Below, in pieces: positions 15,161 through 28,026 of a stretch of 64,000 nt of DNA (its first letter is position 1; each line of letters begins with the position of its first letter). A model generated the notes under the pieces. That model was given only the letters and a program-made list of their open reading frames with translations, had not been told where the DNA came from and made no database searches. The translations under genes and the position numbers were made by a program. The DNA comes from Verrucomicrobiaceae bacterium (GTDB lineage: Bacteria > Verrucomicrobiota > Verrucomicrobiia > Verrucomicrobiales > Verrucomicrobiaceae), in the NCBI GenBank assembly GCA_016795485.1, contig JAEUHM010000016.1:1-64000 (forward strand), written 5' to 3'.

Positions 15161-18070
15161 CTACAGCGACTCGATGAAGGCAAGCAAGTCGGCCATATCC
15201 TGAGGTGTCATACCTTGTTCCAGGCCCTCTGGCATGAGACTTTGGCCACTGGAACTGGTTCCTTTAATGTTAGAGCGCTGGTGGGTAATGACTGCTCCGC
15301 CCATTGTCTTTATGGTGAGGCTTGAAGCATTGTCTTCTGCAATGATGCCCAACGCCGTCTGGCCGTCCTTCGTGTTGATTACATAAGCGATGTATTGAGC
15401 TGCAACCTCTTTATGGGGCTCGAGAATGGCCGTCATGATACCATCCTTTCCACGTGTTTTGACGGTGACCAAGTCCGGCCCAACTTCCATGCCTACCCCC
15501 TTGGCTTTGTGACAAGCAAAGCAACGTTGAGTGAACTGCATTTGGCCTTTAGATGCATCCCCTTTGAGGTCCAGAGCCGCTTTGAACTTAGCCACCACTT
15601 CTTCCCGTGAGGGAGGGATAACGCTAGCGAGCACTGTGTGGGCGATCTTTGAAATCTGCGGATTCTTATGCTTGATGAGAGACTGGACTTGCGATGCCGA
15701 CAACTCGTCTGGCGCTAGGTTTCCAGATTCCAAAAGTGCCTGTGCGGTTGTGTCCTTGCCGAGGAGAAGTTCAGTGGCCTTAGAGCGTGCTGTTTTGCCA
15801 AGCTCTGGAAAGTGAGTCACCAGCGTGTCGATGGCTCCAAGTTGGCTGACGGCTGCAAACTGAAGTGCATCTGGTTGGCCTTTTGCGATGCATTTGAGCA
15901 AAGTCTCTCGGTCATTCACGAGTCCAAGGAGTTGAATAGCTGTTTGCCGCTCAGGCAAAGGTGCATTGGGATCAATGGCTGTGGTGGCTGCCTCTTCGAA
16001 ATACTTCTTCAGTCTCCCTGACGAGTCGGCTTTGAGAAGGGAGGCACCAGCTTTTTTGAGGCCAGTGGCTAGGGCTGCTAACAAACGAGGTTCGGGCTTT
16101 AGGTTGGCGATGGTGGTGGCTACAGATTCAGCTCGGTTGGCTGCACCAATGACGGTCAGGAGCCGAAGCTGAAGCTCCCCAGTGGCATCTGGTGCTATCG
16201 CCTCACAAAGTTCGATCTTGGATGATGCAAGAGCATCGGCAAGCCGGGCATCGTTGGCCGCATGCTTTGCTAAATTGATCGCGACTGCCTCGGCATTGGT
16301 TAGTTTTGACAACGATAGTGCGAGTTGAAAGCGCACGCGTGGTGACGGGTCATCTCCGAGGGCAGGTGCTGGAAGGGAAAGCGCTTCTGCATGGCGTATA
16401 GCAGCTTCACGCACTTGTGGTGACGTATCGGTGAGCAAACCATGGATATGTTCGGCTTTGATCGCCCCCAATCCCTTGAGCGCTCCAAGCGCGTGTAACT
16501 TTGCTAGGGAGCGGTTGCCTTTCAGGACGGAGCTTAGCGCTGGAATGGCTGTTTTGTCATTTCGTTCGTATAGCAAACGCTGTGCTGCATCGCGATGCCA
16601 GCCATTCGGGTGAGACAACAGGTGGACAAGTTCTTCAGTGGATGATTCAGCAATATTCCCACTGCGGTCCGAAGGGCGTTTCCAGTTCTCAGGCACGATA
16701 CGGTAGATGCGCCCGCGGTTGTTGCCACTGTTGAGGTCGATGTGTTTTTTGATCTCGTCAGGAATGCTCCATGGGTGTTCGATCACCTCTCGATACATGT
16801 CGATGAGGTTCAGGCAGCCATCGGGAGCATTGGCAAAGTTGACCACGCGGACCCAAGTGTCTTTGCTCGCAGCGAACTCATAACCCCTTTCATCCTCTGG
16901 CCGCTCGCCTTCCAAGGAGATGCCATCTTTCGTTTCACGGATGATCTTGCGGTGACACAGTTGGCCGCCTGCGTCTCCTGAGAAACTATTGTTGACGAAA
17001 TCTGGTCCATACACGTCACCACGATAGATCGTTGTTCCCGTCGCTCCGGTGAAGTAACCACTCACACGTCCACCGCCCTCGACAGCACCTTTTACGACCC
17101 CGGCGATGCGCCAACGAGTGCGAATGATGCGCCATGGCTCATCCGGACTGATGCGAAAGACCTCAGCGGCCCCCCCATCCACGGCAATGCTCTGGCGTGC
17201 AGAAGGCATTTGGAACCATGGATTGCGCGCAGTGTATTGATCATCGTAGAACCAATGCTGTAGGTGATCTGAGTTTGAGCAGCCGAACTTGCGACCATAG
17301 TTATCGAAACTCATGCCGTATTGCGCACCGCCTCCTTCCAGGCCGTAATCAAAGGTGCGCGGATCAAACCAAAAATCTTTGCCACCGAGCTCGATTCCCT
17401 TCAGTTCGGGGCGCTTGCTGCAAGTAATCACACCACGGTTTCCACCTCCAGCGAGGATATGAATCCGGTTGTCGAGGCCCCACTGGGGGCTGTTCGCCAA
17501 CCCTTGAACGTTCAACATCTTTAGCCCGGTACCAAATCCGGTGAATACCTTTTCTTTTACATCAGCCTTCCCATCGTTGTCGGTGTCCTTAGCAAACCAG
17601 ATGTCCGGGGTAGCAATGACGAAGACTCCTCCATTTGCACAAATCAGACCCGTGGGCCACGGCAGGTCATCAATAAACACGGTGCTGGATTCAAAGAATC
17701 CATCATTGTCTGCGTCAGTCAGCCGAGAGACTCGTCCGAGGTGAGGAGTCTCATCGCGCATTTCACTGTAGTCGATCATCTCGCACGCGAACATTCGGCC
17801 TTGCTCATCGTAGCTGATCGCGATTGGCGATCTGACTTGGGGTTCGTGTGCCGCGAGTTGGAGTTTGAAGCCCTTCTTTACCTGCCAAGTCGCAATCGCG
17901 TCACGTGGCTCTACGGCTGGATAGCGGGGCAAATCCTTGGCCGGGTCAACTGTGACTGCATTCTTGGTTTCTCCGTAGGCTTTAGCGTAAGTCGTCTTTG
18001 ATTTAAGATTGTCCGCTGCGTGTAGAGAGAGTGTGCCGAGCAGTGTGAAAACGAGAGTCCTTGTAGCCAT
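15161..18070 (-). CDS. PVC-type membrane-bound dehydrogenase with HEAT repeats and haem c
   Basis: A large exported protein of the kind called 'membrane-bound dehydrogenase domain' in Planctomycetes and Verrucomicrobia. After a signal peptide (MATRTLVFTLLGTLSLHA) comes a beta-propeller similar to sugar/quinoprotein dehydrogenases (residues ~50-470; SYDEQGRMFACEMIDY, DTDNDGKAD). Then there is a HEAT-like helical repeat region (~480-800) and a C-terminal cytochrome domain with haem motif CFACH near residue 850, followed by GVGMEVGPDLV. The final ~120 residues match the Pirellula/Verrucomicrobium haem-binding domain (VAAQYIAYVINTKDG, QSLMPEGLEQGM). It probably oxidises an extracellular sugar-like substrate; none is demonstrated for close relatives as far as I know. 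ATG 18070 replaces a TTG one codon earlier. Confidence 0.9.
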   Translation of the reverse strand: MATRTLVFTLLGTLSLHAADNLKSKTTYAKAYGETKNAVTVDPAKDLPRYPAVEPRDAIATWQVKKGFKLQLAAHEPQVRSPIAISYDEQGRMFACEMIDYSEMRDETPHLGRVSRLTDADNDGFFESSTVFIDDLPWPTGLICANGGVFVIATPDIWFAKDTDNDGKADVKEKVFTGFGTGLKMLNVQGLANSPQWGLDNRIHILAGGGNRGVITCSKRPELKGIELGGKDFWFDPRTFDYGLEGGGAQYGMSFDNYGRKFGCSNSDHLQHWFYDDQYTARNPWFQMPSARQSIAVDGGAAEVFRISPDEPWRIIRTRWRIAGVVKGAVEGGGRVSGYFTGATGTTIYRGDVYGPDFVNNSFSGDAGGQLCHRKIIRETKDGISLEGERPEDERGYEFAASKDTWVRVVNFANAPDGCLNLIDMYREVIEHPWSIPDEIKKHIDLNSGNNRGRIYRIVPENWKRPSDRSGNIAESSTEELVHLLSHPNGWHRDAAQRLLYERNDKTAIPALSSVLKGNRSLAKLHALGALKGLGAIKAEHIHGLLTDTSPQVREAAIRHAEALSLPAPALGDDPSPRVRFQLALSLSKLTNAEAVAINLAKHAANDARLADALASSKIELCEAIAPDATGELQLRLLTVIGAANRAESVATTIANLKPEPRLLAALATGLKKAGASLLKADSSGRLKKYFEEAATTAIDPNAPLPERQTAIQLLGLVNDRETLLKCIAKGQPDALQFAAVSQLGAIDTLVTHFPELGKTARSKATELLLGKDTTAQALLESGNLAPDELSASQVQSLIKHKNPQISKIAHTVLASVIPPSREEVVAKFKAALDLKGDASKGQMQFTQRCFACHKAKGVGMEVGPDLVTVKTRGKDGIMTAILEPHKEVAAQYIAYVINTKDGQTALGIIAEDNASSLTIKTMGGAVITHQRSNIKGTSSSGQSLMPEGLEQGMTPQDMADLLAFIESL

Positions 18071-18097
18071 CAAACAGGCTACGTTGCCAACGAGGCG

Positions 18098-21000
18098 TTA
18101 CTTTTTCTTGTCGTCGTCACTGAATACTTTTTTTGGACGTTCGGGGATGGTCGGTGGATTCCGAGGGTCTTTAGCGATCAGTGCCTGAAGATGTTTCACC
18201 GCAGCCTCGAGTTGAGCGTCGTTCCCAAGAAAGGTCTGGTGAGGTTCATTGTCGACCACGATGTCAGGGATGACGCCCTCTCCCTCAATTAACCACTTGC
18301 CCTCTGGGCTGAATACACCGGTCTCAGCGGCAGTGGCCATCCCGCTGTCCACAAGCCAGCGTTGAGCGCTCAACCAGATTTCGCCACCCCAAGTGCGAGT
18401 ACCTATGACTTTCCCAAGACCAAGCCGACGAAATCCTTCACTGAACGCCTCGCCATCACTCGCGGTCTTCTGATCACAGATCGCCGCAAGATGTCCAGTG
18501 AAGGCATATTGCATATTTGGACTGGTTGCGCCCACCGGAGGGGCAAACCAAGACCATGCTTTGCGCAAAAGCTTTTCTAGTACCCAAGAGTCGATGTTGC
18601 CGCCTCGATTGTGCCGCACATCCACAATGAGAGCCTGCTTGCGGAACTGAGGATAAAAGTCCCGGGCCCACTGGGCCATGTCAGATTCACCCATGGCGCG
18701 AAGATGGACGTAGCCGATCTGTCCTTTTCCAAGTTCCTCTACTTTCTGGCGTCGAGTGTACTCCCACTCGTCATAGCGGAGATTCTCATCAGCTTCTGCT
18801 GAGATGGGCTTGAGCACTACCTTCCGCTCTTTGTCTGCGGACTTGATGCCAAGAAGCACTTGTTTGCCTGTCTGATTGAGCAGCAACGAGTTTGGATGTG
18901 GAGCATCGACGGTAGGCACTCCATTGATGTGTGTGAGGATGTCACCTTCCTTAACATTTACCCACGATCTTCGGAATGGAGCAAGCTTAGAGGGATACTC
19001 CGGGTCAGTGTGCCAGATGTGATCGACTTTCCATCCGTTGGCTTCGGGCAGACGAGTAAAGGTGGCTCCAAGGCTTGCTGTATCAATGATCTCTGGCACA
19101 TCACGATCATCTCCATAGCGGACATAAAGATGAAGGGCTGTGAGTTCACCAAGTACATCTTGAAGAATCTCATTGAGGTCTGATCGCTCAGTGACTCTCG
19201 CCAATAGAGGTTCATACTTCATGCGGACAGCAGGCCAGTCCACACCGTGCATGCCCCGGTCATAAAAATAGTCTCGCAGCATCCTCCATGCCTCGTGATA
19301 GATCTGACGCCACTCCTCCTGAGGTTCTACCTGGATGGTCCAGCCGTCGAGTTCTGCTGAATCCTTCAGAGTTGCGGGTGTCGTAGGTCCCGCAGCATCT
19401 ATTGTGTATATCTTGTCTTTGATTCGGACGATGAGTTTGTTTGCCTTGGCTTTGAGTTCATAACTGTCGATCTCGGTTAGGTAGGTTATCGACTTGTGGG
19501 GCTTATTTGAGATCTCGAATCTCTCCAGGACGGTCTTTTTGTCGATCCCAGCAGGCTTGCTGAGGAAGAATAGATGTTTGTCACCAACTGTTAGTTCATC
19601 GTAGTTGCCCGCTGCAATCGGAACCTCCTCCAGACGCTCGGAGATGCCCTCAGGGACGATGTCGCGCACTGGCGGCGGGGTTTTGGTAGTGGTTGGTGCC
19701 TTGGAGTCAGCCTTTGGTTCCGATTTTGTGGAAACAGTTCGTCTGGGAGCAGTCACTGTTTTCGGAGTCAGTTCGTCTTCTGGGCGGAATGGGTGCCGAA
19801 GTCCGGGCCTGAGCGCTACCATGAAAACTTTGGTCGTGTGGGTGTAGAACGGTTCAGGCTGCCACAAGCCCCAAGGACTGCTGACGAGGGTACGCATCTC
19901 TCGATTGCTCAGAAAGTAGAGCCATTCACCGTTGGGTGAGAATGCAGGGCTGAAGCTGTTGGTGCGGTCCGACGTTACGGGCACTGTGAAGCCGTCAGCG
20001 ACACGGCAGAGCTTGATTTGCCGAAAGGTGTTTATCGCTTCATCGGTGAATGCAATCCATTGTGAATCTGGTGACCACACGATCTCTGTAAACGCAGTGT
20101 CGCTGGCATTGGTGGCTAGGAGGCGGCTTTCACCACCTTCCACTTTTCTGACCCAAAGCTGTAAGTTTTTGTCTGCCCAAGCAAACCACTTTCCATCAGG
20201 TGATGGACGTGCGCCGAACCTGAAGATGCGGCCATCATTGGTCAGTTGTCGTGGCGGAGCGGAACCATCTGCAGGTGCCGTGTAATACTCGATCTCGCTT
20301 GAGGCATCGCTTTGCAATATCAGATTACGGTCATCAAGAAAGTTAGCGTTCCGATAACGAACGCTATTGTTTCGCGGCAGTTCAACGAGGCGTCCCGATG
20401 AGAATCCAGTCACAAAAACCTCACCGCGCGCCGTCAGAGCGATGCGCTCGCCGTTTGGAGAAGCGTGCCAGGCAGTTACATAGTCGAACGGTTTCTTGAT
20501 CCACTGACGTCGACGTTGATCGAAATCGCTTATCAATGTGATGTTGAGCTTTTTGTCACTGCCCTTTGCTATGTCGTGCAGCCAGAGATCAGCTCCGAGG
20601 CGATAGACGATGCGTCCATTGTCAATGCTGGGCGTCTTTACATCGTCACCTTGGTATTTCGTATGCTGGCGGACGCTAGATCCGTCTGGCTTGATGGACC
20701 AAATGTTCAGCGTGCCATCACGGTCACTCAGAAAGTAGATGCGGCCGTTCCACCACATCGGAGAGCGACTCGTGCTGTTGTCATTGGGTTCTAGGCGAGT
20801 TGCTGCTTTGTCGCCTGTCTTGAAGCGCCACAGATTTTCAATCCAGCCTCCTCGATAACGTTTCGTGGCTGAGTTCTGCTTCGGCAGTCTCACAAAGTAG
20901 AGAGTTCCGTCTGGTGTCACACAGCCTGCTGCTGCTTGTGCCAGGGGCAGGGGAGTGATGTCGCCGGAAGCTGTGTTCAGAGTAAAAAGCTGTTGGTCCG

Positions 21001-21382
21001 GCAGAGTGCTGCGTTTGTCAGAGGCAAACAGAACCGTTTCATCAGCCGTCCAGCTGATCGATCGTGGCTCAGCACTGTCAAAGGTGCGCCGCTGTGGCAC
21101 TCCACCATCTATGGGCATTGTGTAGAGCTCAGACTTGCCTTCAATCGCAGCAGTGAATGCCAACGTCTGGCCATTCGGCGAGATCGCGGCGAGGTGCTCA
21201 CCTGCGGCGTGAGTGGTAAGGCGGGTGGCAAGTCCACCGGCGACAGATACCCTCCACAAATCGCCTTCAGAGGTGAACACAATCGTATCACCCCGCAGAG
21301 TGGGTGAGCGGTAGAATCCCTCGGACGGTGCCGACAAGGAACTGGAGATGATGACGAAAAAAACGGTGGCGAGAGCACGCAT
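18098..21382 (-). CDS. Secreted tricorn-type protease (S41 family)
   Basis: A 1,094-residue homologue of tricorn, the archaeal giant protease that trims peptides to small products. Domain order: signal peptide (MRALATVFFVIISSSLSA); seven- to eight-bladed propellers with WD40-like PD40 repeats (~20-520; TPDGTLYF, SPDGKWFAW, SPDSQWIAFTD); a Pro/Lys-rich linker (~540-580); the C1 region with YHEAWRMLRDYFYDRGMHGVD, where the His of GMHG corresponds to the tricorn catalytic His; a PDZ domain (~790-870); and the S41 core with nucleophile Ser975 in TASDGEAFSEGF after LIVDVRHNRGGN. The Glu of GEGVIPDIV completes the site. Unlike archaeal tricorn it has an export signal. It starts two bases after pseudopilin gene D. 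Confidence 0.95.
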   Translation of the reverse strand: MRALATVFFVIISSSLSAPSEGFYRSPTLRGDTIVFTSEGDLWRVSVAGGLATRLTTHAAGEHLAAISPNGQTLAFTAAIEGKSELYTMPIDGGVPQRRTFDSAEPRSISWTADETVLFASDKRSTLPDQQLFTLNTASGDITPLPLAQAAAGCVTPDGTLYFVRLPKQNSATKRYRGGWIENLWRFKTGDKAATRLEPNDNSTSRSPMWWNGRIYFLSDRDGTLNIWSIKPDGSSVRQHTKYQGDDVKTPSIDNGRIVYRLGADLWLHDIAKGSDKKLNITLISDFDQRRRQWIKKPFDYVTAWHASPNGERIALTARGEVFVTGFSSGRLVELPRNNSVRYRNANFLDDRNLILQSDASSEIEYYTAPADGSAPPRQLTNDGRIFRFGARPSPDGKWFAWADKNLQLWVRKVEGGESRLLATNASDTAFTEIVWSPDSQWIAFTDEAINTFRQIKLCRVADGFTVPVTSDRTNSFSPAFSPNGEWLYFLSNREMRTLVSSPWGLWQPEPFYTHTTKVFMVALRPGLRHPFRPEDELTPKTVTAPRRTVSTKSEPKADSKAPTTTKTPPPVRDIVPEGISERLEEVPIAAGNYDELTVGDKHLFFLSKPAGIDKKTVLERFEISNKPHKSITYLTEIDSYELKAKANKLIVRIKDKIYTIDAAGPTTPATLKDSAELDGWTIQVEPQEEWRQIYHEAWRMLRDYFYDRGMHGVDWPAVRMKYEPLLARVTERSDLNEILQDVLGELTALHLYVRYGDDRDVPEIIDTASLGATFTRLPEANGWKVDHIWHTDPEYPSKLAPFRRSWVNVKEGDILTHINGVPTVDAPHPNSLLLNQTGKQVLLGIKSADKERKVVLKPISAEADENLRYDEWEYTRRQKVEELGKGQIGYVHLRAMGESDMAQWARDFYPQFRKQALIVDVRHNRGGNIDSWVLEKLLRKAWSWFAPPVGATSPNMQYAFTGHLAAICDQKTASDGEAFSEGFRRLGLGKVIGTRTWGGEIWLSAQRWLVDSGMATAAETGVFSPEGKWLIEGEGVIPDIVVDNEPHQTFLGNDAQLEAAVKHLQALIAKDPRNPPTIPERPKKVFSDDDKKK

Positions 21383-21384
21383 GA

Positions 21385-22044
21385 TCAGAAGATCCTAACG
21401 GCACCCGTTGCCCAATCTATTCCTAGGCACTGAATCTCTTTTGGAGTTTCCAGTGGATTGTCTACCCAACGCAACGGACCCAGAGAAATAGTCCATGGCG
21501 TACGTCCTGGGGGCTCAAGGCTGGTGGTGCCGTCGGGTCTGAACTCAATGGCAAAGTAGCCGTAGTCGTTCACGCCAATGTCTGGGTCGCTTCCACGCTG
21601 CCAGGGAATGACACGGCCCCCGACGAGGCTCGAATACTTAGTGCGTGAGGACATGATGGTGTTGCCTTCAAATCGCTGTAGCTCAAACAGCGGAACTGCC
21701 ACAGACTTCAATCCTATGGCGGAAGCTGGTCCTGTGATGGGATCCCTCCGGAGCAGTTGGTAGCCCCTAAACTGAGGCTGAGTGCTAGCGATTCCCATGT
21801 CATAGAACAAGTAGAAGCGCACCTCCACCGTTGTGTTCAGGCGGACTGCGGTTTGGGACGCGATGGAGAGATCATGTGCCAACTTCAACGCGCTTGCTTT
21901 GATTTCCTGGGCCTCCCAAGAGCGCTTGGTGGCAGATACGGTAATCATCATCAAGATGATGAAGATCGTCAGAACCAGCATCAACTCGATCAGAGTGAAG
22001 CCCTGATGCATCGCCTTCCGGAAGCGGGATTGGGGACAGTTCAT
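21385..22044 (-). CDS. Verru_Chthon cassette protein D (GspH/FimT-like minor pseudopilin)
   Basis: A type IV pilin-like protein, 219 residues. The prepilin peptidase site is intact: HQG followed by FTLIELMLVLTIFIILMMI, with Glu5 of the mature protein, then a long amphipathic N-terminal helix (RSWEAQEIKASALKLAHDL). The rest is a beta-rich globular domain. The ATG overlaps the stop of C by four bases. Size and the FTLIE plus 'ALKLAHDLSIASQTAV' pattern are closest to GspH/FimT-type minor pilins. Position as last of four cassette genes matches protein D of the Verru_Chthon set. Confidence 0.88.
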   Translation of the reverse strand: MNCPQSRFRKAMHQGFTLIELMLVLTIFIILMMITVSATKRSWEAQEIKASALKLAHDLSIASQTAVRLNTTVEVRFYLFYDMGIASTQPQFRGYQLLRRDPITGPASAIGLKSVAVPLFELQRFEGNTIMSSRTKYSSLVGGRVIPWQRGSDPDIGVNDYGYFAIEFRPDGTTSLEPPGRTPWTISLGPLRWVDNPLETPKEIQCLGIDWATGAVRIF

Positions 22045-23171
22045 GGCGTAGCGGTTCGGGTTTCTGGTCGACGCCCTTCCGGAAGCGGAACAGTCTGCAC
22101 TAGAACCCGGTGCTCGATCTTGTTCTGGTTTAGGAAGCGCTGCAATGTCTGCAAGTTACTGTCAAAAGATGAGAAATCGGCGAAACTATTGTCTACCATC
22201 GATTTGATCTGCTGCATCATGAACGGAGCCTGCTGGGGGCCGAGTCGGTCCCATGCTTCTTCCGCAACAGCCACGAGAGTAATCTCCACCGCAGGCGGCA
22301 AAACGTGACGAGTTAGGCGACTGATCGGTGTGCTGGCGTATTGGAATGCCCGCGTATCGTAAGTCATGTCTGGAGCGAGAGCATAGCGCTGTAGATTTTG
22401 ATTTCCCGGGTCCGTTCCACCGCTTACTGGGCGAATAAGGAATGCCACGATGTTCTCGGCAACGACGCTCGTGCGGCTGCGTTGCTCGTTGTCCGTCATA
22501 AAGGCGTTTTCGGTATAGCTGAGGACGGCCTGTCTTGACGTTCCGAACGAAATGGCCGGTTTGCCAAACGGATCAGCCGGTTGAGCGCGAAATACACTGA
22601 GTTCGTCTGTCGGCTGACGAAACTCCATGAGCCGGAATCGCAGTCGTGGTGAGCGTGCTAGCCCTGCTTCAGCCATAAAATCTGGCCGCTGGGATGCATC
22701 GGAGTGCAACTCGACAAAGTAACCCCATGCGTTTAGTGCCTGACTCAGGCGCTCGTGACGCATCTGAGAGTTGTCGTCAGCCATCACATCATCAATCCCC
22801 AGCGGGGCCTGGAAAAAGACCGCATGGCCACTCTCGTCCCCTGAAATGCCTGGCAATCCCTGCACGGGGCCGCAATAAAAGTGCAAATCTGATTCGCGTT
22901 CATAGTCTGGATCGGTTGACTCGGCACCTTGTGGGGGGACCTGCCAGCGCGCATCCAATGTTGCCATGGTGACTCGGCGACTAATCGTTTCCATCGCTGA
23001 ATGAGCGGAACGGTAGATATCCATTCGTGCCCGAGTACGCACATAAGTGTTCTGCATCGTGGCCATGGCGGAAGTGATGACAAGCAAGACTCCACCGACC
23101 ACCGCGACCGAGACGAGGATCTCCAAAAGACTGAAACCACCAACGCGGCGAATGGGTTGTGTTCGACTCAT
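22041..23171 (-). CDS. Verru_Chthon cassette protein C (GspJ/PilW-like minor pseudopilin)
   Basis: A 376-residue pilin-like protein with prepilin site GG then FSLLEILVSVAVVGGVLLVI (Glu5 present). The helix is followed by RARMDIYRSAHSAMETISRRV, a pattern typical of GspJ/PilW proteins. ATG 23171 overlaps the stop of B by four bases (ATGA) and is preferred over an in-frame ATG 30 bases upstream. The C-terminal ~250 residues are beta-rich, with several Arg/Pro-rich loops and no recognisable enzyme motif. It also overlaps D by four bases. Likely processed by a prepilin peptidase and built into a pseudopilus or pilus tip; the assembly machinery is not in this window. Confidence 0.88.
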   Translation of the reverse strand: MSRTQPIRRVGGFSLLEILVSVAVVGGVLLVITSAMATMQNTYVRTRARMDIYRSAHSAMETISRRVTMATLDARWQVPPQGAESTDPDYERESDLHFYCGPVQGLPGISGDESGHAVFFQAPLGIDDVMADDNSQMRHERLSQALNAWGYFVELHSDASQRPDFMAEAGLARSPRLRFRLMEFRQPTDELSVFRAQPADPFGKPAISFGTSRQAVLSYTENAFMTDNEQRSRTSVVAENIVAFLIRPVSGGTDPGNQNLQRYALAPDMTYDTRAFQYASTPISRLTRHVLPPAVEITLVAVAEEAWDRLGPQQAPFMMQQIKSMVDNSFADFSSFDSNLQTLQRFLNQNKIEHRVLVQTVPLPEGRRPETRTATP

Positions 23172-23692
23172 TGCTGAAGGGTGGCTTGTGCGTCGAGGCA
23201 CTCGGTGCGTACCAGCATAAATGTTCGCCGTTCCACTTGATCGTTTACGCTTTCATCAAAGGTACCATCGGCGCGTGAACTAACCGTTATCTCCAGCATC
23301 CGGAGAAACGGGCTTGGAGTGCCGTTGGTAGCCAGTGATGAACGGTTTTCCTGTTCCGTGGTCACTTTTGTTCGGGCGAGATACACCGGCTGATCTTCTG
23401 CTGAGGACGTCAATTTTAAGCCTTGGCGGTCGAATCCAAACGGTCCACGAATCTGATTCTCAATCGACTCTAGGGCAACCCAGCTCAACGCTTCGTGTTC
23501 ACTGAATAGAGTTGTCATGATGCGAGCCCTAGCAGCGCGATCTTCAGCTTGTTTGAGTGCGTCCAAACTCGAAGGCAGCAGTCCGATGATCGTCAACAAA
23601 GTGAAGGCAACAATGCCCATGGCGATGATCGACTCGGCGAGCGAGAAGCCGTCATGGTGGGTTGTGATTGATGCGGAAGTTCGTGATTTCAT
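23168..23692 (-). CDS. Verru_Chthon cassette protein B (GspI/PilV-like minor pseudopilin)
   Basis: A 174-residue pilin-like protein. The leader ends HHDG, followed by FSLAESIIAMGIVAFTLLTI, with Glu5 and a polytopic-looking hydrophobic helix; 'AESIIAMG' is the style of GspI/PilV minor pilins. The short globular domain has a few charged loops. It overlaps A and C by four bases each, so all four cassette genes are translationally coupled. A role in priming a pilus or pseudopilus with A, C and D is inferred from the order and types, by analogy with the type II secretion I-J-K tip complex. Confidence 0.88.
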   Translation of the reverse strand: MKSRTSASITTHHDGFSLAESIIAMGIVAFTLLTIIGLLPSSLDALKQAEDRAARARIMTTLFSEHEALSWVALESIENQIRGPFGFDRQGLKLTSSAEDQPVYLARTKVTTEQENRSSLATNGTPSPFLRMLEITVSSRADGTFDESVNDQVERRTFMLVRTECLDAQATLQQ

Positions 23693-26600
23693 GGCGCGAA
23701 CTGTTTTCTCCCTAACACCCGGTAGTCGTAGTAGTCGTCAAGTGTCTTGTCTGTGTTCTGATTGGTCGCAAAATCAATGATTCCAGTCCTATCGGGGTCG
23801 AGATACCGCTCAATCACGGCCTCGCCACGGTATTCGCCTGCTATGCGGTCACGAGTTTCGTCCCAGCCGCTCGGACTTGTTGAAGAAACTTTCTGTAGAG
23901 CTTGAACGCGATAGTGAACTTTGAACACGTTGGAACGGGTGCAGAGGCGGGGATATAACTGAGCGTATGGTGCCTCGCGTGTGTTGTCGCCCGTTGCCTC
24001 GAATGCGTCCGAAGGGTTTTCTTGTGAACCTTCCCACCATTCGATGACTCCATCTGGAGTGGTGGGCAGCGGTCTTGAGTCGCCATAGGTTCGGTCGCCG
24101 CCCAAGGACTTTGGAACAAGGAGGATATCGCAGATCTCCGAAGCAGTGATGAACACCTGATTGTTCGCAAACTTGCGCTCAAATTGTTGAAGCGTGGGCT
24201 CTGCATTTACCGCGTATTGGAAGTCCCATGAGGAGCCTTGCCCAGTGGCAGGATCGAAGTGTTTGTAGTGTGTGGAGTTGTCTGCCACAGCGGATGCTGT
24301 TGGAATGGCGGTAATGCGTACACCTTCGAGAGCTCCGTGCATGGCACTGCGGCGTTTGATCCACGAGAAAGGCATGATCTGGTAGTTCATGTTAACCTTG
24401 CCTTCAGTGGCCCAGTTGTCACAAAAGCCTGCTGGTTCTACGGCTGGCATGAAAAAGAACTCTGCCCAGAGGTGATCCCGGGGGCTGGCGAACCCGAAAT
24501 GGTCTCTCTGGGCTGCATTGGTCAAATCGTAGACTGGTTCAGCAGGGTAGTTCGTGGTGCGTGCGGGAGGATGCGGACAAAACAACAGCGTCTGCCATTG
24601 GCGAGGCATGCTTGGGTCAGAAAAATCGGGTCCCGCGCCGAAGATCCCACTCGGCAACGAGCCAAATCCGACAGCAGAACCCATTTGGCGCAAAGGCGAG
24701 TAGGTAAGGCCGTTCTCCTCCGCAAATAGACCACCCCTTTGGAAGTAGCCGCCATAGTTGGAGTTGGTTGTTACCATTTGTTGATTGTAGCCATTTCCCC
24801 ACTCTGGCATTCCGATATACGGGCCATCCTCAATGATGCCCGGACCATTGTCATAGTCTCCTGGTCTGCCATCGTAGTTCAGAGCGACAGCGCCAGGATT
24901 GATGGCCGGGACTGACGGATTGAGCGTGGTTAATGTTAAGGTCTGAGCACTTGTCCCTGCTACGACAGGGTACGTGGTGCTGCGAACGACATGCCCGACT
25001 TGCACAGGATCCGTGAGTGCTTTTGGAGTTGCTGGATCAAGGTCAGCAAGGTGGGACGTGGGGCGGCCAAGCTCGGGAACTGGAACCGCTGGATTGGTCA
25101 TGCCGAGTTGACCCTCGACAGTAAGGTTGCCAGAACGAAGGCTATGGACTTGGAAATTGAGTGGAGCAGCACCTGCGGCAGTTGGTGGCAGCGCACGATT
25201 TAGTTCCTCGTCCTGGACCAATTTAATTGACGGCCGCATCAACAACGTAGGTGGCGTATTTGGCGGAGGATTTAGTTGGGGAATCTGCACCCTGGCGGCG
25301 AGGTGGCGGATGTCTCCAACGCCCGGCCGGCCTGTATCAACTACCGCCTCAACCGAGCGAACCACATCACCCATTCGGAGGAATGGCACGAACGCGGACC
25401 GTGGGCGGCCTGGGGACGTCAACTCGCGTGGCCGGAAGCGATACTCAAAGTTTTCATTGGAGTTTCCTCCGATGCTTTGTGCTTGAGTCGTCATTACAGG
25501 GGCGGGGCAGTTGCCTACAGCATCTTCGATGAGGACATCGTAACGTTGGGAGAGTTCGTCCAAAAGTGAACGGACTTCGACGGCGATCTGCCAGGGAGTA
25601 ATCTGCATCGTTGCACCGACTGGGATCGGCGGAGTGGGCGAGCCTGGGGTGAGACTTACTTCCTGACTCGCGAAGACAAGCAACTGATCAGCCGTTCCAC
25701 CAAGCGTCTTTGCCGCTCCGCTCTGATCAAGGAACTGTGCCCAAAAACCGCCAAATGCAGAATGCTCACCTCCAAGTTGTGCCTCTCCGCCAGTGGGGAC
25801 TCCATTGGCATTGTGCACTGGGACAGGATTGCTAGAAGGATGTAACACCTCCAGGGCGACACCTGCAGAGGTTGCAGTCGTGATGTTTGGAAACTTGAAC
25901 GGGATAGGTGGTAGTGCGCTTGTGCCAACGCCAGGGGGAGTGATGGTCACTTCAAGGTCTTTGTTCGCTTCCATCCAAAGCTTATAAGCGGAGTTTGTCG
26001 GTGCTGTCCCTGGTGCCACGTTGTAGGGCTCCACGACAACAAAGGCACGCATCTTCGTCACTAGGGGCAGCAGTGGACCTGCCGGAGCGCCAGGAATGTT
26101 CATGCCCTCCGTTGCTACGATGACGACGGCGATCTCGCACAACACAGGGAATCGACCGTAACCTTTCACTACAGAAATGATGCCAGATCCTGTCTGAATC
26201 TCTTCTCCCTCGCCTTGCGGTACGGTCCAACGTGAACCCATAGCAGAAAATGCAGCTCTGCCGCTCTGTGCTCGATTCCCGGATGACGGTCCGAGTTGTC
26301 TATACTCCCGGTCCAAACGTGTAGATGCCCCAAGTTGCTGTGATTCCGGACTTGCTGGGTTAATACCCCATCGAATCATGTCTAGCATCGAAGCTAGCAG
26401 GTGGTTGCGACTTTGTATGCCGTATTTATTGCCGAAGGAGTCTCCAGAACCAGGGATCAGCCGATCACTGACGTTGCGGAGATAGTTAAACAACTCCACG
26501 TTTCTCTCGAAAGCGGAATCAAAGGTTGCCGACTGACTTGAGCCAGGGGCCGAATCAGAGTCCCAGGAGTCACCGTTTTGAAAGTAATAAGGTGCGCGCC

Positions 26601-28026
26601 CTCCACCGGTGCTTAGTGATGCTGCAAGGGCCATTTTGCGGTCGATCTGGTGCCTTTCAGAGGGGCTGGCCTGCACTGGCCAAAGAGAAACTTTTGGCAG
26701 ACCGAATGGGTTGAGTTCGGGTGAGCGGCTGCGAGTGGTTAAGAGAAAGCGGGAGAGTTCAATGTCACGCTGTGTCATGTCCGCAATGCCTGGTGAGACA
26801 TTTCGGGAGCGGTTTCCCAACATTCCTTCAGTGGGTGTAAAGAAGAACTCGTCTACGTTCGCAAACCAACGTTGCTGGCTCGCTAGCGCTTCCTGTCCCG
26901 GTGGGGTGGTGCCACCTTGAGTGCCTGCATTGCCGTAGGTGGCCCAATTGGTGGTGGATGGAAGCAGAAGATGCATGTCCCGAAGTTGTGACCACCAATT
27001 GCCTCCGGTTTGTCCAGGATTGACCGGTTCAAACACATCTACCCGCTGAAACGGAGTGCCTTCCCGGCGGCCAAAGTAATCCAACACGGGCCGCAGAGAA
27101 GTGAAAGCAGGATGTGCGGACTCCCTGTAGTGCTCACCAAAGGCAGGAATGCTGTATGCAGCTGATAAATCGGCTCTCGAGCTGGAGACGGGGCGTGTCC
27201 AGGGAGCGGGAACTGTTGCGGTATTCAGGTTCAGTTTGGCACTCTCATCATCTGTCCAAAATGCGATTCTGCCCACTACCGGGTTGTTGCGATTGGCCAG
27301 CGGCAAGTTGATCACGTAGCCTGTCGATTGAGCTGGTGCGACGACTTGGCCATCCTTCAGCACGTAGAGCCACCGCACAGGCATCGGATTTGTGCCGGGC
27401 TTGATCTGGGGCATGGCCCCACCACTGCGTATCGCTCCAATTTCCAGATCGCGGCGGGTGGTATCGGCTCTCGTCAGAGCTCCTGGATCGAAGATGGGGT
27501 ACACTAGGCGTTCATCCCGCATTGCAGCCGTTGATCCTGCACCACGGCGAGCTGAGGCGACCAGAGGCTGATTTAAATCCGTCCAAACCGCCGGTGACTG
27601 TTCCCAACTTGCGAGGGCAGATTCGGCTTCGGCGAGAGGATCAGAGCCGCGTGGAAGATTCATCTGGTCAGACGAGTAGAGTTTCACAAACTCCGATGGA
27701 CCGTTTGTAGGATTGTCACTCGTGCCTACCGTTGTGTCGAAAATGCGGATCATTCCCGGTTGGGACGTCCAGGTGTAGCCGTTGTCGTAGGCCAGTTCAC
27801 TCGTAGCACGGCGGATTTGGGAGATTACCAGCTTCTCGGGGAGGGTCTGTAGCATCCGAAGATTTGCCATATCGGCCACTCCGCGTGATGCCCTCGTTTC
27901 CGATGAAATGAGGCTCATCACCGCCAACGACAGGAACGCGATCAGCGCCAAGGCGGTGATCACGAGTACGAGCGCAGCGCCTGTGGGCGCAAAAAATGGC
28001 TCACGCTGGGGGGTTGGGGGCTTCAC
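23689..28026 (-). CDS. Verru_Chthon cassette protein A (giant GspK-like pseudopilin)
   Basis: A 1,445-residue protein, the largest of the cassette. The N-terminus has one hydrophobic helix (GAALVLVITALALIAFLSLA) but no Glu5-containing FxxxE pilin site, the arrangement of GspK/PilX-type minor pilins. Near residues 255-272 it has AFWTDDESAKLNLNTATV, matching the conserved 'D-E-x-x-[RK]-[LI]-N-[LI]-N' element of GspK. GspK proteins are usually near 300-350 residues; here ~1,100 extra residues form repeated Pro- and Asn-rich beta-like stretches. The start is GTG at 28024-28026, beside the palindrome TATGTATTTACATA. No catalytic motif is visible. It overlaps B by four bases. I infer a tip or cap role in an extracellular filament. 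Confidence 0.88.
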   Translation of the reverse strand: MKPPTPQREPFFAPTGAALVLVITALALIAFLSLAVMSLISSETRASRGVADMANLRMLQTLPEKLVISQIRRATSELAYDNGYTWTSQPGMIRIFDTTVGTSDNPTNGPSEFVKLYSSDQMNLPRGSDPLAEAESALASWEQSPAVWTDLNQPLVASARRGAGSTAAMRDERLVYPIFDPGALTRADTTRRDLEIGAIRSGGAMPQIKPGTNPMPVRWLYVLKDGQVVAPAQSTGYVINLPLANRNNPVVGRIAFWTDDESAKLNLNTATVPAPWTRPVSSSRADLSAAYSIPAFGEHYRESAHPAFTSLRPVLDYFGRREGTPFQRVDVFEPVNPGQTGGNWWSQLRDMHLLLPSTTNWATYGNAGTQGGTTPPGQEALASQQRWFANVDEFFFTPTEGMLGNRSRNVSPGIADMTQRDIELSRFLLTTRSRSPELNPFGLPKVSLWPVQASPSERHQIDRKMALAASLSTGGGRAPYYFQNGDSWDSDSAPGSSQSATFDSAFERNVELFNYLRNVSDRLIPGSGDSFGNKYGIQSRNHLLASMLDMIRWGINPASPESQQLGASTRLDREYRQLGPSSGNRAQSGRAAFSAMGSRWTVPQGEGEEIQTGSGIISVVKGYGRFPVLCEIAVVIVATEGMNIPGAPAGPLLPLVTKMRAFVVVEPYNVAPGTAPTNSAYKLWMEANKDLEVTITPPGVGTSALPPIPFKFPNITTATSAGVALEVLHPSSNPVPVHNANGVPTGGEAQLGGEHSAFGGFWAQFLDQSGAAKTLGGTADQLLVFASQEVSLTPGSPTPPIPVGATMQITPWQIAVEVRSLLDELSQRYDVLIEDAVGNCPAPVMTTQAQSIGGNSNENFEYRFRPRELTSPGRPRSAFVPFLRMGDVVRSVEAVVDTGRPGVGDIRHLAARVQIPQLNPPPNTPPTLLMRPSIKLVQDEELNRALPPTAAGAAPLNFQVHSLRSGNLTVEGQLGMTNPAVPVPELGRPTSHLADLDPATPKALTDPVQVGHVVRSTTYPVVAGTSAQTLTLTTLNPSVPAINPGAVALNYDGRPGDYDNGPGIIEDGPYIGMPEWGNGYNQQMVTTNSNYGGYFQRGGLFAEENGLTYSPLRQMGSAVGFGSLPSGIFGAGPDFSDPSMPRQWQTLLFCPHPPARTTNYPAEPVYDLTNAAQRDHFGFASPRDHLWAEFFFMPAVEPAGFCDNWATEGKVNMNYQIMPFSWIKRRSAMHGALEGVRITAIPTASAVADNSTHYKHFDPATGQGSSWDFQYAVNAEPTLQQFERKFANNQVFITASEICDILLVPKSLGGDRTYGDSRPLPTTPDGVIEWWEGSQENPSDAFEATGDNTREAPYAQLYPRLCTRSNVFKVHYRVQALQKVSSTSPSGWDETRDRIAGEYRGEAVIERYLDPDRTGIIDFATNQNTDKTLDDYYDYRVLGRKQFAP

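Follow-up and report, generated by a model that had tools for sequence, protein, structure and literature searches.

Verru_Chthon cassettes as candidate exchangeable, cargo-linked tip sets of a type 4 filament in Verrucomicrobiota

It has long been asked how type II secretion machines select their cargo, and a related question is posed by four overlapping genes on contig JAEUHM010000016.1 of a Verrucomicrobiaceae bacterium (GCA_016795485.1), of which the first 64,000 nucleotides, hereafter the window, were analysed: what does a set of proteins resembling a filament tip do in the absence of neighbouring filament machinery? The four proteins, A to D, belong to the NCBIfam families of Verru_Chthon cassette proteins A-D, which are named by lineage only; we found no paper mentioning the Verru_Chthon cassette names or accessions. 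Since every protein scores above the curated cut-off of its family (98-845 bits) and dozens of further loci preserve the same set, the grouping is more than chance. The original prediction, made from the sequence alone, placed the four genes and their three ATGA overlaps correctly, all on the minus strand, and proposed a coupled set of minor pseudopilins equivalent to the tip subunits H, I, J and K of type II secretion, a view sustained here by the folds of A and C, the sequences of B and D, conserved linkage and co-divergence. We extend it, with somewhat more confidence than doubt, to the proposal that the cassettes are exchangeable, cargo-linked H-I-J-K pseudopilus tips operating on shared machinery, most likely that of type II secretion.

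In an H-I-J-K set, the H, I and J subunits carry a glutamate at position 5 (Glu5) of the mature protein and K does not, and this is the pattern found in the window cassette. The prepilin sites foreseen for B, C and D are present, at G15/F16..E20 in B, G22/F23..E27 (open reading frame (ORF) numbering) in C and G15/F16..E20 in D, and Glu5 is invariant in 40, 52 and 35 homologues, respectively. A was likewise expected to lack Glu5 and has the site G16/AALVL; GxAL sites without this residue are also present in the three K-type pseudopilins (312-322 aa) of the same genome. The GspK-like DESAKLNLNTA element that had been noticed in A is real: a D[DE]ExxKxNxN motif stands at this position in 60 of the 65 full-length A homologues, and a second motif, GxxNxN, mostly in the form GK[IV]N[ML]N, is found near the C-terminus in 64 of them, with G1209, N1212 and N1214 unchanged across 19 divergent A proteins. 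In the window protein, the two motifs (DDExxKxNxN and GKxNxN) lie ~950 residues apart.

Structural comparisons support the assignment of A to the GspK type and of C to the GspJ type. The fold of A was assessed through an ortholog of 1079 aa that shares 34% identity with window A and was modelled with AlphaFold (60 sequences; predicted local distance difference test score (pLDDT) 88). This model matched GspK (3ci0_K) with a Z score of 11.5 over 256 of the 280 GspK residues and XcpX (6utu_F) with a Z score of 11.1, the next chain reaching only 4.8. Because the alignment spans residues 46 to 1079 of the ortholog model, A is best read as a GspK with large insertions, its fold being interrupted by several hundred residues; the bulk of the insertion in window A probably corresponds to the inter-motif stretch, residues 269-1208. 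Within this stretch, residues ~618-1054 display a mean pairwise identity of 0.25-0.26, compared with 0.37-0.50 elsewhere, and vary strongly in length; in the ortholog model this module is beta-rich and yields weak beta-sandwich matches (Z up to 4.8, ortholog residues 505-741). The model of window C (pLDDT 86) aligned with XcpW, EpsJ and GspJ at Z 9.8-10.5 and with the Thermus pilin TTHA1219 at Z 11.2; a streptococcal minor pilin scored 5.4, and unrelated chains did not exceed 2.1. Thus, folds unrelated to minor pilins, which the original prediction had named as evidence against itself, were not encountered. A sequence search of A against the PDB gave no match, and profile-profile comparison with the genome's own GspK proteins aligned the N-terminal 62 columns only (probability 82%, E 1e-5). 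Pfam T2SSK does not match A, and it likewise leaves the operonic GspK proteins of this genome unmatched.

For the other two subunits, identity is suggested by sequence only. B resembles GspI/PilV, its 40 homologues being matched by the XpsI (20), PilV (19) and GspI (12) models, and D resembles GspH, the model of which matches 34 of 35 D homologues; the window proteins themselves score under the equivalog cut-offs, and the matches mostly cover the N-terminal part.

The cassette is maintained as a unit. A scan of 84,980 species yielded 281 relatives of A, of which the best 79 loci were kept, all from Verrucomicrobiota lineages. Among the 55 loci with sufficient flanking sequence, the gene orders were ABCD (20), BCAD (12), BCDA (5) and DBCA (1), the remaining loci missing at least one recognised member. 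The original prediction had described the order as H-I-J-K reversed; however, A-B-C-D reads K-I-J-H, which is no reversal, and the order varies among lineages. B and C are neighbours 57 times, with A and D shifting around this fixed pair, which fits the published tip architecture, whose core consists of XcpV and XcpW, with XcpX above and XcpU beneath (PMC6211770). Furthermore, the distance matrices of A to D correlate with r 0.69-0.79, a level reached by none of 1000 within-genome cassette swaps; following removal of a sister genome and one near ortholog, r was 0.55-0.71, again with 0 of 1000 swaps reaching it. The four proteins therefore co-diverge as a unit. At one locus (L175, 946-1602), a D-type gene lies ~7 kb away from its B-C-A cassette, indicating that D can be unlinked. 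We found no conserved fifth cassette gene; the neighbour clusters consist of PATR giants, LacI, MFS and GH130. At three loci (L097 3700-8180, L101 3874-8096 and L102 7378-12113), a gene for a 236-262 aa protein follows a gene whose product resembles A in the N-terminus only, and the two of these that were scanned have no Pfam match.

As had been noted for the locus itself, machinery is missing nearby: no secretin, assembly ATPase, platform protein or major pseudopilin was found on the window contig. All are present elsewhere in the genome, which encodes one prepilin peptidase, six GspE/PilB-type extension ATPases and six or seven secretins, the outcome of a genome search that the original prediction had called for. 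There are two type II secretion operons, read by eye as GspE, F, G, H, I, J, K from gene order, size and N-terminus; each has its own H-I-J-K, so the window cassette is an extra tip set. These two operons and an apparent third, split one, with F, G, H and I on C47 and secretin, J and K on C20, account for the loci C4:348-354 kb, C2:9-17 kb, C20:56-67 kb and C47:30-32 kb. Another locus (C32:17.8-21 kb; L064 5307-10748) has two PilB-like ATPase genes in tandem, with genes for a PilC-like platform protein and one pilin after them; this ATPase tandem is seen again in the relatives that were searched. Besides the window cassette, the genome holds one more, at C32:35.6-42.5 kb (L065 5056-12530), which is complete and has an A of 1727 aa. 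A weak A match on C24 (a 2441 aa ORF) has no pilin signal and was treated as chance.

Across seven genomes with full-length A, counted by hand from the search tables, copies of A and of extension ATPases number 19/6, 10/5, 7/3, 4/7, 4/7, 2/7 and 2/6. One machine per cassette is not supported, with no positive relation between the two counts (Spearman -0.54, n=7, p 0.21), and is impossible in the many-copy genomes, because A copies outnumber ATPases in three of them. Since the cassettes encode no machinery and are more numerous than the machines in these three genomes, sharing of machines is most likely. Of the two earlier suggestions, a specialised filament tip gains support, whereas a secretion system particular to this lineage does not. 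In one genome (G218 C38:106-125 kb, probably L121) several full-length A genes are clustered; in another (G078 C1:1230870-1233994) one A gene spans two reading frames, which may reflect a frameshift or decay of this copy. Many other Verrucomicrobiota encode proteins of 700-1500 aa sharing the A-type N-terminus only, with up to ~30 first-look candidates per genome.

Table 1. Positions of the cassette genes, their junctions and internal features, and the adjacent peptidase gene in the window
Feature	Position	Strand	Evidence
A, giant GspK-type tip cap, 1445 aa	23689..28026	-	TIGR02600, 845 bits (cut-off 332)
A, first GspK-like motif WTDDESAKLNLN, residues 257-268	27223..27258	-	kept in 60/65 homologues
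A, inter-motif stretch, residues 269-1208 (limits approximate)	24403..27222	-	motif positions and ortholog alignment to GspK
A, variable module, ~residues 618-1054	24865..26175	-	low identity, most variable length
A, second GspK-like motif GKVNMN, residues 1209-1214	24385..24402	-	invariant G1209, N1212, N1214
B, GspI/PilV-type minor pseudopilin, 174 aa, Glu5 present	23168..23692	-	TIGR02598, 98 bits (cut-off 51)
C, GspJ/PilW-type minor pseudopilin, 376 aa from overlapping ATG (23171; longest ORF starts with GTG at 23201), Glu5 present	22041..23171	-	TIGR02599, 301 bits (cut-off 257)
D, GspH/FimT-type minor pseudopilin, 219 aa, Glu5 present	21385..22044	-	TIGR02596, 110 bits (cut-off 70)
ATGA overlap A/B	23689..23692	-	
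ATGA overlap B/C	23168..23171	-	
ATGA overlap C/D	22041..22044	-	
Tricorn-like S41 peptidase, 1094 aa, signal-like N-terminus	18098..21382	-	PF03572, PF14684, PF14685, PF07676

What might such tips serve? The tricorn-like peptidase gene of the window starts 2 nt past the end of D and is probably the fifth gene of the operon; its product may be a client of the cassette. Downstream of it, on the same strand (15161-18073), lies a gene for a large DUF7133/HEAT/cytochrome c protein, and a divergent LptA-like gene is located upstream of the cassette. Across the loci, genes for PATR-repeat proteins account for 14 of 136 cassette-adjacent genes and for 7 of the other 531 (odds ratio 8.6, p 4e-6). Also enriched are PEP-CTERM-like ends (16 of 136 versus 13 of 531) and proteins with a length of at least 800 aa (26 of 136 versus 30 of 531). 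These counts include orthologous loci of sister genomes, so that the p-values overstate the evidence; by our count, there are about six independent groups of PATR neighbours. Pfam assignments of the adjacent proteins include PATR, PATR with GH5, GH16, GH2, GH5 and heparinase II/III, and a further one is of an alginate-lyase family with a LamG domain. The second cassette of the source genome has a co-directional gene upstream for a 919 aa protein with CBM60 and CBM6 domains, and at L121 a 1746 aa PATR/PEP-CTERM protein is encoded between two full-length A genes. In Verruconatronum alginivorum, also of the Verrucomicrobiota, pseudopilin genes stand beside polysaccharide degradation genes, and one is over-expressed on alginate (PMC13274419). 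The neighbours of the cassettes suggest that large extracellular proteins and enzymes acting on polysaccharides are either secreted by the filament or interact with it.

These neighbours also bear on the main rival explanation, in which the cassette primes a PilB/PilC-type type IV pilus and the giant A serves as an adhesin at its tip in place of PilY1, in effect as a modular pilin that perhaps binds polysaccharide. Tips of type IVa pili also bear H-I-J-K, and modular pilins with adhesive domains are known (PMC10191384, PMC8179133); moreover, the type II secretion operons have tips of their own, the PilB-PilB-PilC locus showed no set of minor pilins, and PilY1 had no match in the seven genomes, in a search run without a positive control. 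Yet the recurrent neighbours are secreted giants and polysaccharide-degrading enzymes, and the structures that A and C resemble are for the most part type II secretion subunits, although such matches separate the filament classes poorly. We regard a pilus adhesin as less likely than a secretion tip, though it is the most serious of the alternatives.

The presence of canonical tip genes in the genome, together with the view that GspK controls pseudopilus length (PMC6211770), could instead point to accessory subunits that enter the existing type II secretion tip, forming mixed tips, or tune pseudopilus length or activity without any choice of client; however, the four proteins stay together and co-diverge, and nothing points to exchange between paralogues, which argues for self-contained tips and leaves this explanation little probability. 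Least probable of all is that pilin-like helices merely anchor the proteins in the envelope, never entering a filament: the genome and the phylum are very rich in pilin-like proteins (PMC13274419), but the full H-I-J-K composition, the right Glu5 pattern, the folds of two tip subunits and the scarcity of A-like N-termini in genomes without a prepilin peptidase (2 of 11, both incomplete, versus 220 of the 278 with it, or 222 of the 289 sampled Verrucomicrobiota genomes in all) speak against it. Genomes with the cassette and no peptidase or assembly genes, a further outcome that the original prediction had set against itself, did not turn up, all seven genomes with full-length A carrying a prepilin peptidase and extension ATPases.

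In the explanation that we prefer, the cassette would encode an H-I-J-K complex at the tip of a type 4 filament, which is most likely the pseudopilus of type II secretion. The core would be the pair of B (I) and C (J), with D (H) beneath joining the shaft and A (K) capping the tip, where its fast-evolving, beta-rich module would be displayed. The single prepilin peptidase of the genome would process all four proteins, and the filament would be built by an assembly ATPase, platform, major pseudopilin and secretin that the cassettes share. Several cassettes per genome would then supply tips that can replace one another, each suited to its own client. The gene for the client would often lie beside the cassette; candidates are giant PATR/PEP-CTERM proteins, polysaccharide lyases and hydrolases and, in the window, possibly the tricorn-like peptidase. 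A fuller picture, in which a few type II secretion machines of some Verrucomicrobiota accept many plug-in tips and each giant GspK carries a client-specific module for the adjacently encoded large protein or polysaccharide enzyme, is put forward only tentatively.

Several observations weigh against this explanation. The GspK-fold evidence for A stems from the 34%-identical ortholog and not from window A itself, and the fold assignment of both A and C rests on VIA re-alignment of Foldseek candidates, as neither model had a significant hit in Foldseek on its own. The canonical type II secretion operons already possess tips. No PATR neighbour occurs at the window's own cassette, no other cassette was seen with the tricorn gene beside it, and LacI, MFS and GH130 genes recur near cassettes and are not significantly closer to them than other genes of the same loci. 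The formation of a complex, the class of the filament, the sharing of machinery, the recognition of clients and their secretion are all read from genes and models. If the proposal is true, the occurrence of many self-contained tip sets, often by candidate clients and apparently served by a few shared machines, would make tip-based cargo choice directly testable; it also gives a likely identity to four protein families that had been named without any paper that we could find.

Compared with the GspH-I-J-K (XcpU-V-W-X) tip of type II secretion, the cassette is alike in composition, Glu5 pattern, K and J folds and the pairing of B and C as the I-J core. It differs in lying outside a type II secretion operon, in its K subunit of ~1080-1740 aa versus ~300, in its 2 to ~19 copies per genome and in its variable gene order. 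Modular pilins, such as PilB and PilC of S. sanguinis and a Thermus pilin with an inserted beta-solenoid, similarly display an extra module, probably at the tip (PMC8179133); in the cassette, by contrast, the insert lies within GspK and is accompanied by a complete I-J-H set, and A is larger than the 860-residue extreme reported for modular pilins (PMC8179133). The expansion of PulG-like proteins in V. alginivorum shares with the cassette the phylum and the proximity of pseudopilin genes to polysaccharide degradation genes, whereas those proteins are described as single PulG-like ones and not as an H-I-J-K set (PMC13274419). To the already named Verru_Chthon families, the present analysis adds subunit identities, fold matches and a neighbour pattern and, with them, the description of an orphan tip set that occurs in multiple copies and has a giant GspK.

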